DNA of 37,046 nt from Opitutales bacterium (GTDB lineage: Bacteria; Verrucomicrobiota; Verrucomicrobiia; Opitutales; UBA953), in contig JAILGB010000019.1 of NCBI GenBank assembly GCA_024697185.1, positions 1 to 37,046 on the forward strand, written 5' to 3'. Shown here piece by piece: positions 6,561-28,536 of this stretch (position 1 is the first letter of the stretch; every line of letters begins with the position of its first letter). Below the pieces are notes generated by a model. That model had not been told where the DNA came from, made no database searches, and saw only the letters and a program-made list of their open reading frames with translations. A program made the position numbers and the translations under genes.

Positions 6561-6942
6561 TCTCGATGAGGATGCCGTCGGGATCGCGGATGAAAAAATA
6601 GTCGCGTCCCAGGCGTCCCTTTAAAATCTGCGGATTGTCGGCAATGCCGGCTTCGCTGAGTTTTTTTGCCGTCGAGACAATGTCGTCCGTGGCGAGGGCG
6701 AAATGTTTGCAGCCGAGCGTTTGGAGGTCGTCGGGGAGCGTTTTGCGATAGTCGGGCAGAGGCGCCGGATTTTTGTAGCAGAAGAGTTCGAGGATCGCGT
6801 TCCCGTTTTTCATCAGAGCGATGCGGAGGGCAGCGTCGGGACTTTGCCAGATTTTGTCGGGAACGAAGCCGAGCTGTTTGTAAAATTCGAGGCTTTGCTC
6901 GAGGCGGGAGACGCTGACGGCGATGTGGTCAAATTTTAGCAT
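6547..6942 (-). CDS. VOC-family (glyoxalase-like) protein
   Basis: This is a vicinal-oxygen-chelate protein of 131 residues with the paired beta-alpha-beta-beta-beta layout: KFDHIAVSVSRLEQSLEFYK at the start and RDYFFIRDPDGILIEIIQG at the end, where the glutamate is a usual metal ligand. Substrate cannot be told; glyoxalase I and epimerase relatives share this pattern. The start is set at the ATG at 6942, seven residues inside the longest frame, because GGAGG lies 7 nt upstream. The longer start (6960) would overlap the -10 box. Confidence 0.85.
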   Translation of the reverse strand: MLKFDHIAVSVSRLEQSLEFYKQLGFVPDKIWQSPDAALRIALMKNGNAILELFCYKNPAPLPDYRKTLPDDLQTLGCKHFALATDDIVSTAKKLSEAGIADNPQILKGRLGRDYFFIRDPDGILIEIIQG

Positions 6943-6958
6943 AGGGAATCCTCCGTTC

Positions 6959-6987
6959 ATTTTATGTCATCCTGCGGGAGCCGACAA
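6959..6987 (-). promoter_or_regulatory. Putative promoter of the VOC gene
   Basis: On the minus strand TTGTCG (6987-6982) and TAAAAT (6964-6959) have 17-bp spacing. The predicted start near 6952 gives a leader of about 10 nt that retains only part of the GGAGG. Confidence 0.5.
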
Positions 6988-7025
6988 AGAAAAACGCTTG
7001 AAACGCTTTTGTCTTGATGTCATAC

Positions 7026-7057
7026 TTTACTTGACAAATCGCATTAGGGTATATTAT
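7026..7057 (+). promoter_or_regulatory. Possible glgB promoter
   Basis: TTGACA (7031-7036) is a perfect -35, but the AT-rich -10 candidates TATATT (7050) and TATTAT (7052) give spacings of only 13 and 15 bp. TTTACT (7026-7031) with TATATT gives 18. A promoter here is likely, but which boxes are used is unclear. Confidence 0.45.
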
Positions 7058-7090
7058 GCCCTGATTTTATCAACCTCAATTGAAACTACT

Positions 7091-9292
7091 ATGATTATCT
7101 CGCAAGCGGAACTTGAATCGTTCACTTCTGTTGTGCAATCGCACCCACATGATTTTTTGGGAATGCATCCGGCTGTTGTCGAAGGGAAGTCCGGCATAGT
7201 TGTCCGCTGTTATCTCAAGGATGCGAAATCGGTCAAGGTCAAAAATCTCAAGACCGGCAAACTGTTTGAGATGCAGCGTTTGAGCGATGACGGTTTCTTT
7301 GAACTGTGGCTGCCGCGCAACAAGTCGCTTTTCGATTATCGTCTGCAGGTTGAGAGTTATGCGGGCGGGACGCGCGAGATTGCGGACGCCTATTCGTTCT
7401 GGCCGACGATTTCGGAGCAGGATCTTTATCTGATCAACCAGGGCACGGATCATCAGGTTTACAACAAGTTGGGCGCACATCTGCGGGAGATCAACGGCGT
7501 CAAGGGCGTTTCGTTTGCGGTTTGGGCGCCGTCGGCGCGCCGCGTTTCCGTCGTCGGCGATTTTAACGAGTGGGACGGCAGATACCATCCGATGCGGATG
7601 TTGGGCGCGTCGGGCATTTGGGAAGTCTTCGTTCCCGGCGTTCAGGCGGGCGCCAAATACAAATTTGAACTTCTCAACCAATACAATCCCGCGCCGTATT
7701 GCAAGATCGACCCCTGTGCGGTCGCCTTCGAGCCGCCGCCCAACAACGCCTGTATTGTCTGCGACCTTTCGCAGTTCCGTTGGAGCGACAAGGAGTGGAT
7801 CGCCAAGCGCGACGCGACCCGCTGGCTCCAGAAGCCGATTTCTGTCTATGAGATGCATCTCGACTCTTGGCGGCGCGTTCCCGAAGACGGCAACCGTCCG
7901 TTAAACTATCGGGAGTTGGGCGAGCAGCTGTCAAAATACTGCAAGGAGATGGGCTTCACGCATGTGGAGATGTTGCCGCCGACGGAATATCCGTTCCCGC
8001 CGAGCTGGGGTTATCAGGTGACCGGTTTTTATGCGCCGACTAACCGTTACGGCTCGCCGCTTGATTTTATGGCGATGGTCGATAAGCTGCACGAGAACGA
8101 TATCGGTGTGATCATCGACTGGGTGCCGGCGCACTTCCCGCGCGACGATTGGGCTTTGGCGGGTTATGACGGGACGCATCTCTATGACCACGCGGATCCG
8201 CGTCAGGGCGCACAGCCCGACTGGGGAACGCTGCTTTTCAATTTTGGCCGCTGTGAAGTCCGCGGATTTATGCAGGGCAGCGCTTTGTCGTGGATTGAGC
8301 GTTTCCACGTGGACGGTCTCCGCGTCGATGCTGTCGCGGCGATGCTTTATCTCGACTATTCCCGCAAGGACGGCGAATGGATCCCCAACCAATACGGCGG
8401 TCATGAGAATCTTGAGAACATCGAATTTTTGAGAAGCACCAACGATCTGGTGCACCATTATCATCCGGGCGTGATCACGATCGCGGAGGAATCGACATCG
8501 TTCGGCGGTGTCACGCATGCGACGCGCGATTACGGCTTGGGATTCGATTTCAAATGGGCGATGGGCTGGATGCATGACACGCTCGCCTATATGAAGGAGG
8601 ACCCGATCAACCGCAAATACAATCACAACAAGATGACGTTTGCGATGTTGTATCAGTATTCGGAAAACTTTATGTTGGCGCTTTCGCACGACGAAGTCGT
8701 CCACGGCAAGGCGTCGCTGATCAACAAAATGCCGCAGCCTGACATGACGAGCAAGGCTGCCAACCTGCGCGCGCTCTACGGTTATATGTGGACCTGGCCG
8801 GGCAAGAAGACGTTGTTTATGGGCGGGGAGTTCGGACAGAGCCACGAGTGGAAATACGACGCCTCGCTCGACTGGCACCTGCTTGAATATCAGGATCACA
8901 AGGGCGTGCAGTTGGCGGTCAAGGATTTGAACAGCCTTTATCGCGGCGCGCCTGAAATCGCGGCGCTCGATCAGGATTACCGCGGTTTCGAGTGGATCAA
9001 CGCCAACGACGGCGAAAACTCGGTCTATTCCTTTGTCCGCAAGAGCGCCAAGGAAGAGACGGTTTGGGTCGTGGTCAGCAACTTCACACCAGTCGCCCGC
9101 ACTTATCGTTTGGGCGTTCCCGCGACGGGCGAATGGGTCGAGATCTTCAATTCCGACTCCAAACGCTACGGCGGTTCGGATATGCTCAACGGCAAGGTCG
9201 TCGCGGAGACGATCCCGTGGAACGACCGCCCGCAGTCCATCGAAATCCACCTGCCGCCGCTGGCAACCCTTATTTTCCAACAAAAAAAATAA
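7091..9292 (+). CDS. glgB: 1,4-alpha-glucan (glycogen) branching enzyme
   Basis: The enzyme makes alpha-1,6 branches in glycogen. From the ATG at 7091 it has 733 residues, close to E. coli GlgB. It has two N-terminal CBM48-type segments (HDFLGMHP near the start; GVSFAVWAPSARRVSVVGDF near 140) and then a GH13 barrel. Catalytic residues are visible: nucleophile D413 in DGLRVDAV, acid/base E466 in TIAEES and D534 in LSHDEVVHG. All three are offset by +8 from my recollection of the E. coli positions, supporting the chosen start. The frame extends upstream to 6923, but that part covers the promoter. No other glycogen gene is adjacent. The GGGAACG word is sparse (four reverse copies), as expected for a conserved gene. 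Confidence 0.96.
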   Translation: MIISQAELESFTSVVQSHPHDFLGMHPAVVEGKSGIVVRCYLKDAKSVKVKNLKTGKLFEMQRLSDDGFFELWLPRNKSLFDYRLQVESYAGGTREIADAYSFWPTISEQDLYLINQGTDHQVYNKLGAHLREINGVKGVSFAVWAPSARRVSVVGDFNEWDGRYHPMRMLGASGIWEVFVPGVQAGAKYKFELLNQYNPAPYCKIDPCAVAFEPPPNNACIVCDLSQFRWSDKEWIAKRDATRWLQKPISVYEMHLDSWRRVPEDGNRPLNYRELGEQLSKYCKEMGFTHVEMLPPTEYPFPPSWGYQVTGFYAPTNRYGSPLDFMAMVDKLHENDIGVIIDWVPAHFPRDDWALAGYDGTHLYDHADPRQGAQPDWGTLLFNFGRCEVRGFMQGSALSWIERFHVDGLRVDAVAAMLYLDYSRKDGEWIPNQYGGHENLENIEFLRSTNDLVHHYHPGVITIAEESTSFGGVTHATRDYGLGFDFKWAMGWMHDTLAYMKEDPINRKYNHNKMTFAMLYQYSENFMLALSHDEVVHGKASLINKMPQPDMTSKAANLRALYGYMWTWPGKKTLFMGGEFGQSHEWKYDASLDWHLLEYQDHKGVQLAVKDLNSLYRGAPEIAALDQDYRGFEWINANDGENSVYSFVRKSAKEETVWVVVSNFTPVARTYRLGVPATGEWVEIFNSDSKRYGGSDMLNGKVVAETIPWNDRPQSIEIHLPPLATLIFQQKK

Positions 9293-13323: not shown

Positions 13324-15471
13324 ATGGCATCAAAAAAGACATCCGTAAAAAAATCCGTTCCCGCGAAGAAGACCGTTCCCGCGAAGAAAGCCGCTCCCGC
13401 GAAGAAAGCTGTTCCCGCGAAGAAAGCCGTTCCCGCGAAGAAGGCCGTTCCCGTGAAGAAGGCTGCTCCCGCGAAGAAAGCTGTTCCCGCGAAGAAGGCT
13501 GTTCCCGTGAAGAAAGCCGTTCCCGCGAAGAAGGCTGTTCCCGCGAAGAAAGCCGTTCCCGTGAAGAAGGCCGCTCCCGCGAAGAAAGTTGTCGCTCCCG
13601 TTGAGGAAAAAGCTCCGGAAATCCCGAAGGCGGTGATCGGTGAGGTGCAAAATGTCCGTCGCGTCGAGGTCAAGCTTTCCCCGCTCGACCGCAAGCGTTT
13701 GGCGGAAAAAAACAAACGTGCCGAAGCCGCGCAAAAGCGCATTATGGAGCGTCTCCGTCAAAATCCGTCGGACGCCTTGGCGAACATCGACCAGGAGGAG
13801 ATGAACCACCACATCGAAAATCTCAAAAATATCGGCGACAAAAAAGGCTATGTCACACTGGAAGACATCAACAATGAAATTCCTGCGATCGAGACCGACG
13901 CCGCGCTTTATGAAAATATTTTCGACATCCTCAACCTCTCCAACATCCGCTACCTGGACTCGGACGAGGAGGATGCGCTCCGCCTCAAACTCAGCCTGGA
14001 AGAAGAGGAGGAACTCCGCCAGACCGTCGCGCGCTCGGACGCTCTCGACGATCCCGTGAGAATGTATCTCCACCAGATGGGACAGACAAAACTGCTCGAA
14101 AAAGAGCAGGAAATCGAAATTTCGACCCGCATCGAACAATGCCAGACGCGCGCGCTGAAAGCCATCTGCTCGCTCTGGTTCACATTCCCGGATCAGATCG
14201 CGCTCGCAAAAGACCTCATGGAACGGGCCGAACGCTACGACCGCGTCATTCTCGAAAAACGGATTCATCCGCGCGACGAATACATGAAACAGTTGCCGCG
14301 AATCATCAAAAACGCGGAAAAACTGAATGAAAATATCGTAAAAGCCTGGGAAAAATACACAAAGGCGGTCCACGCTGACGAAAAACGCGAAAAACTCGCA
14401 TACGTCGAAAAACTCGAACAAAGTATTTTGAAAATCTCAAAAGAGTTTTGCTTCAAACCCGATATTTTTGAAGAACTCGAGAAAAAATACAGCAAAGACA
14501 TCGAACTCGTCCGCGACCTTCTCAACAAACGCGATCTTATCTTGAAAAAAGACCGCCGCGCGATCAACATCCCGCTGGACTCCGTCAAAAAAGAATTGCT
14601 GAAAATCGAGCGGAAGATGCATGTCGCCCCCGAAAAGCTCCTCGAGGTGCACCGCGAGTTCGCCGACGCCAACGAGGGCGCGCGAAAAGCAAAGGACGAG
14701 ATGATCAACGCCAATTTGCGATTGGTAATCTCGATCGCAAAAAAATACACCAATCGCGGACTCGCCTTCCTCGACCTGATCCAGGAGGGCAACATGGGAC
14801 TGATGAAGGCTGTCGATAAATTCGAACACAATCGCGGTTTCAAGTTTTCAACCTACGCGACCTGGTGGATCCGCCAGGCGATCACGCGCTCGATCGCCGA
14901 TCAGGCGCGCACGATCCGTATTCCCGTCCACATGATCGAAAACCTGAACAAGGTGATGCAGACCCAAAAAATGCTTTTCCAGGAAAACGGTCACGAGCCG
15001 ACGGTCGAAGAGCTCGCCAAGGCGGTCGGACTCGAAGTCGAAAGGGTGCGGGAGATCTTGAAAATGTCCCAACACCCGATTTCCCTGAGCACTCCGGTCG
15101 GTGACGGCGAAGACACGAGCTTCGGCGACTTTATCGAAGACAAAAGCGCGGAAGACCCCCACGACAAGGCGTCGGCGGCGCTTTTGCGCGACACGATCGA
15201 GGAAGTGCTCGCGACCCTGACCGAACGCGAGAGCGAAGTTTTGCGTTACCGCTACGGTCTCAAGGACGGCATCGAGCATACCCTCGAAGACGTCGGAAAA
15301 ATCTTTGAAGTCACCCGCGAACGCATTCGTCAGATCGAGGCGAAGGCCCTGCGCAAAATGCGCCACCCGACGCGCTTGCGCAAACTCAACGGCATTTTTG
15401 AAACCGGCGACGAGCAAAACGGCCCCGGCTTCAACCAGCTCGCCAACGATGACGACGAGGACGAAAAATAA
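13324..15471 (+). CDS. rpoD: Primary sigma factor (sigma70/RpoD) with Lys-Pro-Ala repeat tail
   Basis: This housekeeping sigma factor of 715 residues has region 1.2 near [11 protein letters not shown] (about residue 242), a non-conserved helical insert, region 2 around 454-520 ([44 protein letters not shown]), region 3, and region 4 ending in [20 protein letters not shown] (about 664-683). The N-terminus is unusual: residues about 11-88 are 13 tandem hexapeptides of the type VPAKKA, basic and disordered like a histone H1 tail, encoded by an 18-bp repeat containing GTTCCCGCGAAGAA. Such a tail could add nonspecific DNA contacts (inference). TATAAT at 13317-13322 is only 1 nt from the ATG. The conserved core has no GGGAACG word. 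A hairpin follows the stop. Confidence 0.96.
13354..13587 (+). repeat. Tandem 18-bp coding repeat (13 units) in rpoD
   Basis: Thirteen head-to-tail 18-bp units, each GTTCCCGC or a one-base variant followed by GAAGAAAGCC or a similar ending, encode [12 protein letters not shown] or VPVKKA. Six units contain an exact CGTTCCC. The array is in frame throughout and variation is mostly synonymous or Ala/Val. Confidence 0.95.
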
Positions 15472-27990: not shown

Positions 27991-28019
27991 TTGAATTATC
28001 ATTTTTTTTGTGGTAAAAT
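27991..28019 (+). promoter_or_regulatory. Putative promoter of the H1-tailed protein gene
   Basis: TTGAAT (27991-27996) and TAAAAT (28014-28019) are spaced 17 bp. The predicted start near 28026 leaves a leader of about 43 nt with CGGAAAG upstream of the ATG, in contrast to the leaderless arrangement of neighbours. Confidence 0.6.
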
Positions 28020-28068: not shown

Positions 28069-28473
28069 ATGAAAAAAACAGTAAAGAAGACAGTAACGAA
28101 GAAATCGACCGGCACTAAGGCTGCGGCGACGAAAACGTCGGCAGTCAAAGCTGTTGCAAAAAAGGTTGTCGCCAAGGAAAGCCCGGCAAAAAAAGCCGAG
28201 ATTAAAGCCAAGGCCTCCAAAATCACTCGTGTTGTCGCTCATATTGACGTGGGATGGGGTCACGCGCTTTACATCCGCGGCGAGGGCGCCGGCTTGAGCT
28301 GGCAGCAGGGCGTGCCGATGATTTGCGAAAAAAACAACGAATGGCACTGGGTCGCCGAGACGGACATCAGCCCGATCGTCTTCAAAGTCCTCGTTGACGA
28401 CAAAATCTGGGCGCAGGGCGAAAACGTCACCATCAACGCCGGCGACGTTCACCTCTCCGAACCCAAGTTCTAA
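28069..28473 (+). CDS. Small protein with Lys/Ala-rich H1-like tail and beta-sandwich domain
   Basis: The 134-residue protein has two parts. Residues 1-52 are a basic Lys/Ala/Thr-rich tail like histone H1 or the bacterial Hc proteins. Residues 53-134 (VVAHIDVGWGHALYIRGEGA, WQQGVPMICEKNNEWHW, FKVLVDDKIWAQGENVTINA) look like an Ig/starch-binding-type beta-sandwich of the kind seen in glycogen- or starch-binding modules, with conserved Trp residues. A role bridging nucleic acid and a glycan or protein is possible but unproven. It stands alone with its own promoter and terminator, suggesting high expression. Confidence 0.8.
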   Translation: MKKTVKKTVTKKSTGTKAAATKTSAVKAVAKKVVAKESPAKKAEIKAKASKITRVVAHIDVGWGHALYIRGEGAGLSWQQGVPMICEKNNEWHWVAETDISPIVFKVLVDDKIWAQGENVTINAGDVHLSEPKF

Positions 28474-28496: not shown

Positions 28497-28536
28497 TGTT
28501 CCTCGAAATGCCTTTTCGGGGAACATCTTTTGTTTT
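28497..28536 (+). terminator. Terminator after the H1-tailed protein gene
   Basis: TGTTCCTCGAAA and TTTTCGGGGAACA (28497-28525) form a stem with one wobble, followed by TCTTTTGTTTT. Unlike most terminators here it has only a degenerate version of the motif. Confidence 0.7.

Follow-up and report, generated by a model that had tools for sequence, protein, structure and literature searches.

Glycogen in bacteria is usually regarded as a matter of enzymes alone, and H1-like DNA binders are characteristically rich in lysine and poor in arginine. For two other storage polymers, granule-associated proteins bearing a histone-like tail have been described in Pseudomonas: PhaF attaches PHA granules to nucleoid DNA via its histone-like AAKP-repeat part, as reported in PMC5658603, and the KPAA tail of P. 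aeruginosa AlgP is needed for even polyphosphate spacing (PMC9239181). On the glucan side, Trp543, Lys578 and Trp590 (A. niger glucoamylase numbering) constitute the well conserved starch-binding site one of CBM20 modules (PMC9920598), W293 of human STBD1 (genethonin-1) is required for amylose binding (PMC4076837), and mutations of the corresponding residues of AMPK beta, W100, K126 and W133 among others, markedly reduce glycogen binding (PMC2642990). Glycogen itself is reported to form condensates in E. coli and to push the nucleoid to one side (PMC12706056); since it displaces the nucleoid there, a tether between the two would have a visible effect.

The window analyzed here, that is, the whole stretch of 37,046 nucleotides from contig JAILGB010000019.1 of an Opitutales bacterium, contains a gene that resembles each of these systems in part (Table 1). 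The initial annotation had described its product as a small protein joining a Lys/Ala-rich tail to a compact Trp-containing domain, behind its own promoter and terminator. The ORF coordinates proved exact and the composition was confirmed. Pairwise comparison of the window sequence with six close loci (21 pairs, 7 sequences; 71-76% identity in the domain) reports dN values of 0.03-0.22 against dS values of 0.45-2.1, and the coding sequence is under clear purifying selection. Because dN is well below dS and homologues occur across the order, this is a real gene, and an artefactual ORF could be ruled out. Regarding the flanking signals, the terminator stood as a clear hairpin with a T run, whereas the promoter is weak, with 9 of the 12 consensus positions in AT-rich DNA. 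The gene appears monocistronic in view of this terminator, and a T-run-flanked hairpin follows the stop codon in all eight relatives' loci checked (seven distinct ones, L003 repeating L033). As judged from their translations only, the upstream gene is divergent and of an outer-membrane efflux type, and the downstream gene is of a sulfatase type.

Table 1. Position and supporting evidence of the features discussed in the text (window coordinates; residue numbers are those of the domain).
Feature	Position	Strand	Evidence
GlgB (glycogen branching enzyme), upstream of the gene, non-adjacent	6923..9292	+	TIGR01515, 853 bits at 7421-9277; Pfam CBM_48, GlgB_N
Promoter-like TTGAAT-17-TAAAAT, TG before the second hexamer	27991..28019	+	Consensus scan 9/12; weak, AT-rich DNA
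Coding sequence, 134 aa, tail and CBM20-like domain	28069..28473	+	ATG start, order-wide homologues, purifying selection
Lys/Ala-rich, Arg-free histone-H1-like tail, 52 aa, net +15	28069..28224	+	Composition; low pLDDT
CBM20-like beta-sandwich domain, 82 aa (predicted)	28225..28470	+	AF2 pLDDT 93.6, structural matches
Trp26, aligned with Trp543 of A. niger glucoamylase (site 1)	28300..28302	+	hhalign; 69/69 tail-type
Lys54, aligned with Lys578 (site 1)	28384..28386	+	hhalign; 69/69 tail-type
Trp62, aligned with Trp590 (site 1)	28408..28410	+	hhalign; 69/69 tail-type
Asn67, aligned with Asn of the CBM20 DPN motif	28423..28425	+	hhalign; Asn 47, Asp 22 of 69
Intrinsic terminator, 12 pairs (5 G-C) then T run	28497..28525	+	Clear; strong

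The C-terminal domain (residues 53-134) is acidic, with a net charge of -5, and contains five Trp residues. Its AlphaFold model, built from an alignment with 29 homologues, was submitted to Foldseek, which reports the CBM20 of STBD1 as the top PDB match (E 1.1e-3), followed by glucoamylase CBM20, pullulanase CBM41 and AMPK-beta CBM48, none of the PDB matches reaching E 0.001. Via structural alignment, the model superimposes on the CGTase CBM20 with a Z score of 11.1 (rmsd 1.9 over 81 residues), on STBD1 with 11.0, on glucoamylase with 10.8, and on beta-amylase with 9.5-9.6. As modelled, the domain has the CBM20 fold. At the sequence level, Pfam CBM_20 matches seven of the 29 family members (best E 6e-5) and AMPK1_CBM five (best E 0.0038), both with an E limit of 10, and the window's own domain matches no Pfam family at E 10. 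Searching PDB sequences with the domain or its profile returned weak matches only, including three profile matches (E 0.6-2.2) to proteins with glucan- or amylase-type names that are too weak to count. An NCBIfam match to a beta-galactosidase subunit (E 0.04) was taken as chance. Alignment by hhalign with four solved glucoamylase CBM20s gives an E-value of 0.0048, yet a probability of only 7%; in its register, Trp26, Lys54, Trp62 and Asn67 fall on Trp543, Lys578, Trp590 and the Asn of the DPN motif.

Seven residues (Arg18, Gly19, Trp26, Trp40, Lys54, Asp59 and Trp62) are invariant among 69 distinct tail-type domains, a set chosen by E-value against the family profile and hence favouring conserved residues; an open frame of 340 aa served as the dividing line between tail-type and membrane-type proteins, and seven Chlamydiae domains were counted apart. 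The family has a loop of its own, RGEGxGLSW, and to our knowledge Arg18 is not a CBM20 ligand residue. The proposal of a starch/glycogen-binding-like module would have fallen with an unrelated fold that lacks a binding surface. On the count of the fold it stands, the predicted fold being that of CBM20, with a site-1 Trp-Lys-Trp that aligns and is invariant in the tail-type homologues. Taken from sequence and model, glucan binding by this domain is likely.

A second type of protein with a domain of the same family was read by eye in 12 loci, namely L060-L064, L066, L069-L071 and L073-L075. This membrane-type paralogue comprises hydrophobic N-terminal stretches, a coiled-coil-like region, a long acidic linker and the C-terminal domain; the one example scanned (L064) returned nothing above the Pfam cut-offs. 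Its 12 domains all retain Arg18, Gly19 and Asp59, whereas Trp26 is found in 8/12 and Lys54 and Trp62 in 3/12 each. Site 1, kept in every tail-type domain and mostly lost here, is therefore relaxed in the paralogue. The window's genome yields a single match to the domain profile, so that no membrane-type paralogue is seen in it. The initial annotation had also envisaged a tether to membranes; inspection by eye finds no hydrophobic segment that could anchor the window protein, and this role was set aside; it is the separate paralogue of relatives that has hydrophobic N-terminal stretches.

The N-terminal tail (residues 1-52) contains 17 Lys, 11 Ala and no Arg. In the full-length model, the mean pLDDT is 42-68 in blocks of residues 1-50 as compared with 94-97 in the domain blocks, and owing to this low confidence the tail is probably disordered. 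Its composition bears out the histone-H1-like character first suggested for it. The profile matches are sub-threshold: Pfam HC2 gives E 0.029 and 14.9 bits (cut-off 40), NCBIfam Rv3852 gives E 0.008 and 16.7 bits (cut-off 100), and the NCBIfam histone-like families as a whole score 10.4-16.7 bits against cut-offs of 80-135, none being passed. Membership of the HC2 family was rejected since the cut-offs were missed in both Pfam and NCBIfam, as was membership of the phasin family, with no phasin match in Pfam or NCBIfam at E 10 and a domain that is CBM20-like.

Among relatives, the tails of 46 distinct verrucomicrobial proteins (the window's order and other records) average 62 aa, with 29% Lys, 1% Arg and a net charge of +17, and those of 20 proteins from the Competibacteraceae order average 124 aa, with 15% Lys, 29% Ala, 18% Pro, about 1% Arg and a net charge of +12. 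In these means, tail starts were picked by a simple rule and six entries without Met were included (L017, the masked L031, L090, L094, L097 and L102), with L097 spanning 7 residues and L102 apparently out of frame. AAKP/KPAA-type words, of the kind present in PhaF (AAKP) and AlgP (KPAA), occur in 16/46 verrucomicrobial and 18/20 Competibacteraceae-order proteins. In the stretches of up to 120 residues before the domain, which may include codons upstream of the start, the 46 proteins total 858 Lys versus 74 Arg. Tail length ranges from 22 to 184 aa among the proteins with a Met, Chlamydiae left out, and several tails are short or weakly charged: L044 (Ser/Gln/Cys-rich, +5), L020 (22 aa, +2), L052 (27 aa, +2), L011 (+3) and L050 (-4). 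With such non-basic tails in the family, DNA binding would be no fixed property, and of all the arguments that it is not obligatory these exceptions carry the most weight. In the window itself, an RpoD-type sigma factor (13324-15471, + strand) has a histone-H1-like tail of the same style, covering roughly its 90 N-terminal residues; such tails may thus be a habit of the lineage.

The phyletic distribution, a check suggested from the outset, was established by profile search. The domain is present in 143/177 genomes of the window's order (141/177 with a single sequence as query), and tail-type proteins are present in 117/177 by a hand count of 118 places that score at least 77 bits within an open frame below 340 aa, one genome (G142) having two. 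In a sample of the phylum, 62/387 genomes match, all 62 of them within the window's own order. Outside it, 29/40 genomes match in the order of a Competibacteraceae record (L057), a set that includes the genomes of records titled Synechococcaceae (L053) and Proteobacteria UBA2383 (L054). The title of L053, Synechococcaceae cyanobacterium SM1_2_3, looks wrong, this genome belonging to the same order as L057. As the protein is common to two distant lineages, gene transfer between the verrucomicrobial order and the Competibacteraceae order would be the simple reading. A Chlamydiae MAG (L059, genome G528) has 13 domain matches in several proteins, some of ~590-650 aa with two or more C-terminal copies. 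Phages gave no match, nor did one peptide pattern, scanned against viral contigs, lead to any confirmed relative.

The plasmid search returned one match, an esterase (PF00756) on a Kitasatospora indigofera plasmid (L103:2393-3529). There, the domain is N-terminal, behind a signal-peptide-like stretch, and shares 42% identity over 72 aa with Trp26, Trp40, Lys54, Trp62 and Asn67 kept. Within the window's order, Pfam CBM_20 passes its cut-off in only 1/177 genomes and in a different protein, again an esterase (G112), where it lies N-terminal to the esterase domain. A module placed before an exported esterase would be in the position typical of carbohydrate-binding modules.

Turning to glycogen metabolism, the initial annotation had pointed to GlgB in the genome, and its TIGR01515 match lies inside the window itself. 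The same genome also has GlgA (C5:23235) and GlgP (C30:41409). Over their cut-offs, GlgA is found in 160/177 and GlgP in 167/177 genomes of the order, and being near universal they make co-occurrence with the domain poorly discriminating. One genome, G081, a single contig estimated at 95% complete, has none of GlgA, GlgP and GlgB in our searches and is absent from the 143 domain-bearing genomes, the domain being scored as absent, for both protein classes, by this absence from the list; among ten genomes sampled from its genus, the domain, GlgP and GlgB are each present in 10/10 and GlgA in 9/10. This joint absence counts as one event. On the other side stand 33 genomes, out of the 34 without the domain, that keep GlgA and/or GlgP; glycogen thus does not require the protein. 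GlgM-type synthase was searched in 22 genomes, namely the 21 domain-bearing ones with a weak or no GT5 GlgA match and the window's own, and passes the cut-off in 11/22, ten f21 genomes with weak GT5 matches only and G065. In ten further domain-bearing drafts (G006, G057, G063, G099, G120, G133, G152, G167, G169 and G173), neither a strong GT5 match nor a GlgM synthase was found; GlgP is present in all ten.

Neighbouring ORFs were clustered for 28 named loci (L032-L059) and 25 loci from the Competibacteraceae order and Chlamydiae (L078-L102, of which L078-L082 repeat named ones). By eye, no glycogen gene was recognised adjoining the gene in these loci, nor was a neighbour shared across lineages; among the clusters listed, the sole one with both verrucomicrobial and Competibacteraceae-order members looks like a shadow or low-complexity ORF. 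The largest cluster, an FAD-oxidase-like ORF in 24 Competibacteraceae-order loci (19 distinct genomes), is probably plain synteny. The gene and GlgP were seen on one contig in eight genomes (G026, G034, G050, G053, G059, G093, G127 and G144); in single-contig genomes, the distances between them look random by eye, with no evident linkage.

Taken together, the protein may be a cytoplasmic alpha-glucan-associated protein, the glucan being glycogen. Its CBM20-like domain would bind the outer glycogen chains via site 1 (Trp26, Lys54, Trp62 and Asn67) and its disordered, arginine-free tail would bind DNA nonspecifically, so that glycogen particles would be attached to, and spread over, the nucleoid, allowing even spacing and inheritance, in the way proposed for PHA granules with PhaF and for polyphosphate granules with AlgP. 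The parts of this tether differ in strength: DNA binding by the tail is plausible, and positioning of granules by the protein is speculative. The tether as a whole, in which an alpha-glucan-binding protein would connect glycogen with the nucleoid by means of its histone-like tail, is a good candidate that falls a little short of probable. The DNA step in particular is put forward conditionally, given the homologues with short or neutral tails and the 33 genomes that keep glycogen genes without the protein.

The same fold and site-1 evidence would also serve a protein that coats glycogen without touching DNA, its domain holding the glucan and its charged, disordered tail acting as a solubilising or spacing brush, or as a flexible spacer. 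The spread in tail length and the neutral, Ser/Gln-rich or short examples are more readily explained by a brush than by specific DNA binding, and the resemblance to the RpoD tail hints that a tail of this kind is no distinctive mark of the tailed CBM20-like protein. However, most tails are Lys-rich and Arg-poor like those of H1-like DNA binders, a bias that a neutral brush would not need, and we regard a mere coat as rather unlikely. In a different scheme, the domain would mark glycogen and the tail would recruit an acidic partner, such as an enzyme, RNA, the ribosome or the acidic linker of the paralogue, and thereby control turnover. The coexistence of the same domain type with an acidic linker in the membrane-type loci is in keeping with it, as is the report that human STBD1 interacts with glycogen synthase and debranching enzyme while a Trp mutant of its CBM20 does not (PMC4076837). 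But the lone profile match in the window's genome leaves no paralogue to recruit there, and the clustered loci offer no recognised cross-lineage neighbour as a partner; such a recruiter or regulator is improbable.

A further alternative would be that a CBM20 fold has taken on a role unrelated to carbohydrates, the tail making the protein an ordinary nucleoid-associated one. The family's own RGEGxGLSW loop and the invariant Arg18 (69/69) fit this idea, as does a paralogue that largely keeps the loop though most of its site-1 residues are lost, and so do the 33 genomes with glycogen genes and no domain. In contrast, the invariance of the site-1 Trp-Lys-Trp in the tail-type domains, the occurrence of the domain in an apparently secreted esterase and the absence of both domain and glycogen pathway from G081 speak against it; we give this reading a small chance. 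Returning to the glycogen-to-nucleoid tether, a fuller version of it, in which a dedicated tether spread through one verrucomicrobial order, was acquired by or from Competibacteraceae, and works in many relatives with the membrane-type paralogue as the other half of a positioning system, is possible but doubtful.

The architecture of the window protein both resembles and departs from those of the described systems. With the CBM20 modules of glucoamylase, CGTase and STBD1 it shares, in the model, the beta-sandwich over the whole domain and the site-1 Trp-Lys-Trp(-Asn) in register, but its domain is shorter (82 aa), is missed by Pfam CBM_20, has its own loop and is fused to a basic tail instead of an enzyme. 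Like STBD1, its top Foldseek match, it is non-enzymatic with a C-terminal CBM20-like domain, whereas STBD1 is eukaryotic and has an N-terminal hydrophobic anchor in place of the basic tail; the membrane-type paralogue is nearer to STBD1 in layout, but without most of the site-1 residues. PhaF likewise combines a polymer-binding part with a Lys/Ala(/Pro) histone-like disordered tail, but its polymer is PHA, bound by an N-terminal amphipathic helix, and the histone-like part is C-terminal. AlgP, too, has an H1-like KPAA tail on a granule-associated protein, yet with a helical N-terminal domain, polyphosphate instead of glucan, and a tail that is C-terminal and longer. Chlamydial HC2 and Rv3852 resemble the window protein in their Lys/Ala-rich low-complexity tail only, their cut-offs lying far above its scores, and we know of no CBM20-like domain in these histone-like proteins. 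The family is thus a CBM20-like one, with its own loop and joined to a histone-like tail, that is not filed as CBM20, the window's domain escaping the Pfam CBM_20 model, nor as HC2 or phasin. None of the papers listed from the open-licence literature describes it.

Competibacteraceae are known glycogen accumulators in wastewater. Pfam CBM_20 did not pick up the domain in the genomes sampled across the whole order of the window, so that annotation may be overlooking an alpha-glucan-binding family; the domain is also present in 29 of 40 Competibacteraceae-order genomes. Spatial control of the sort known for PHA and polyphosphate would be extended to glycogen by a protein that binds it without being an enzyme and carries a chromatin-like tail. 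If the tether is true, H1-like tails would position three storage polymers on the chromosome, glycogen joining PHA (PhaF) and polyphosphate (AlgP).
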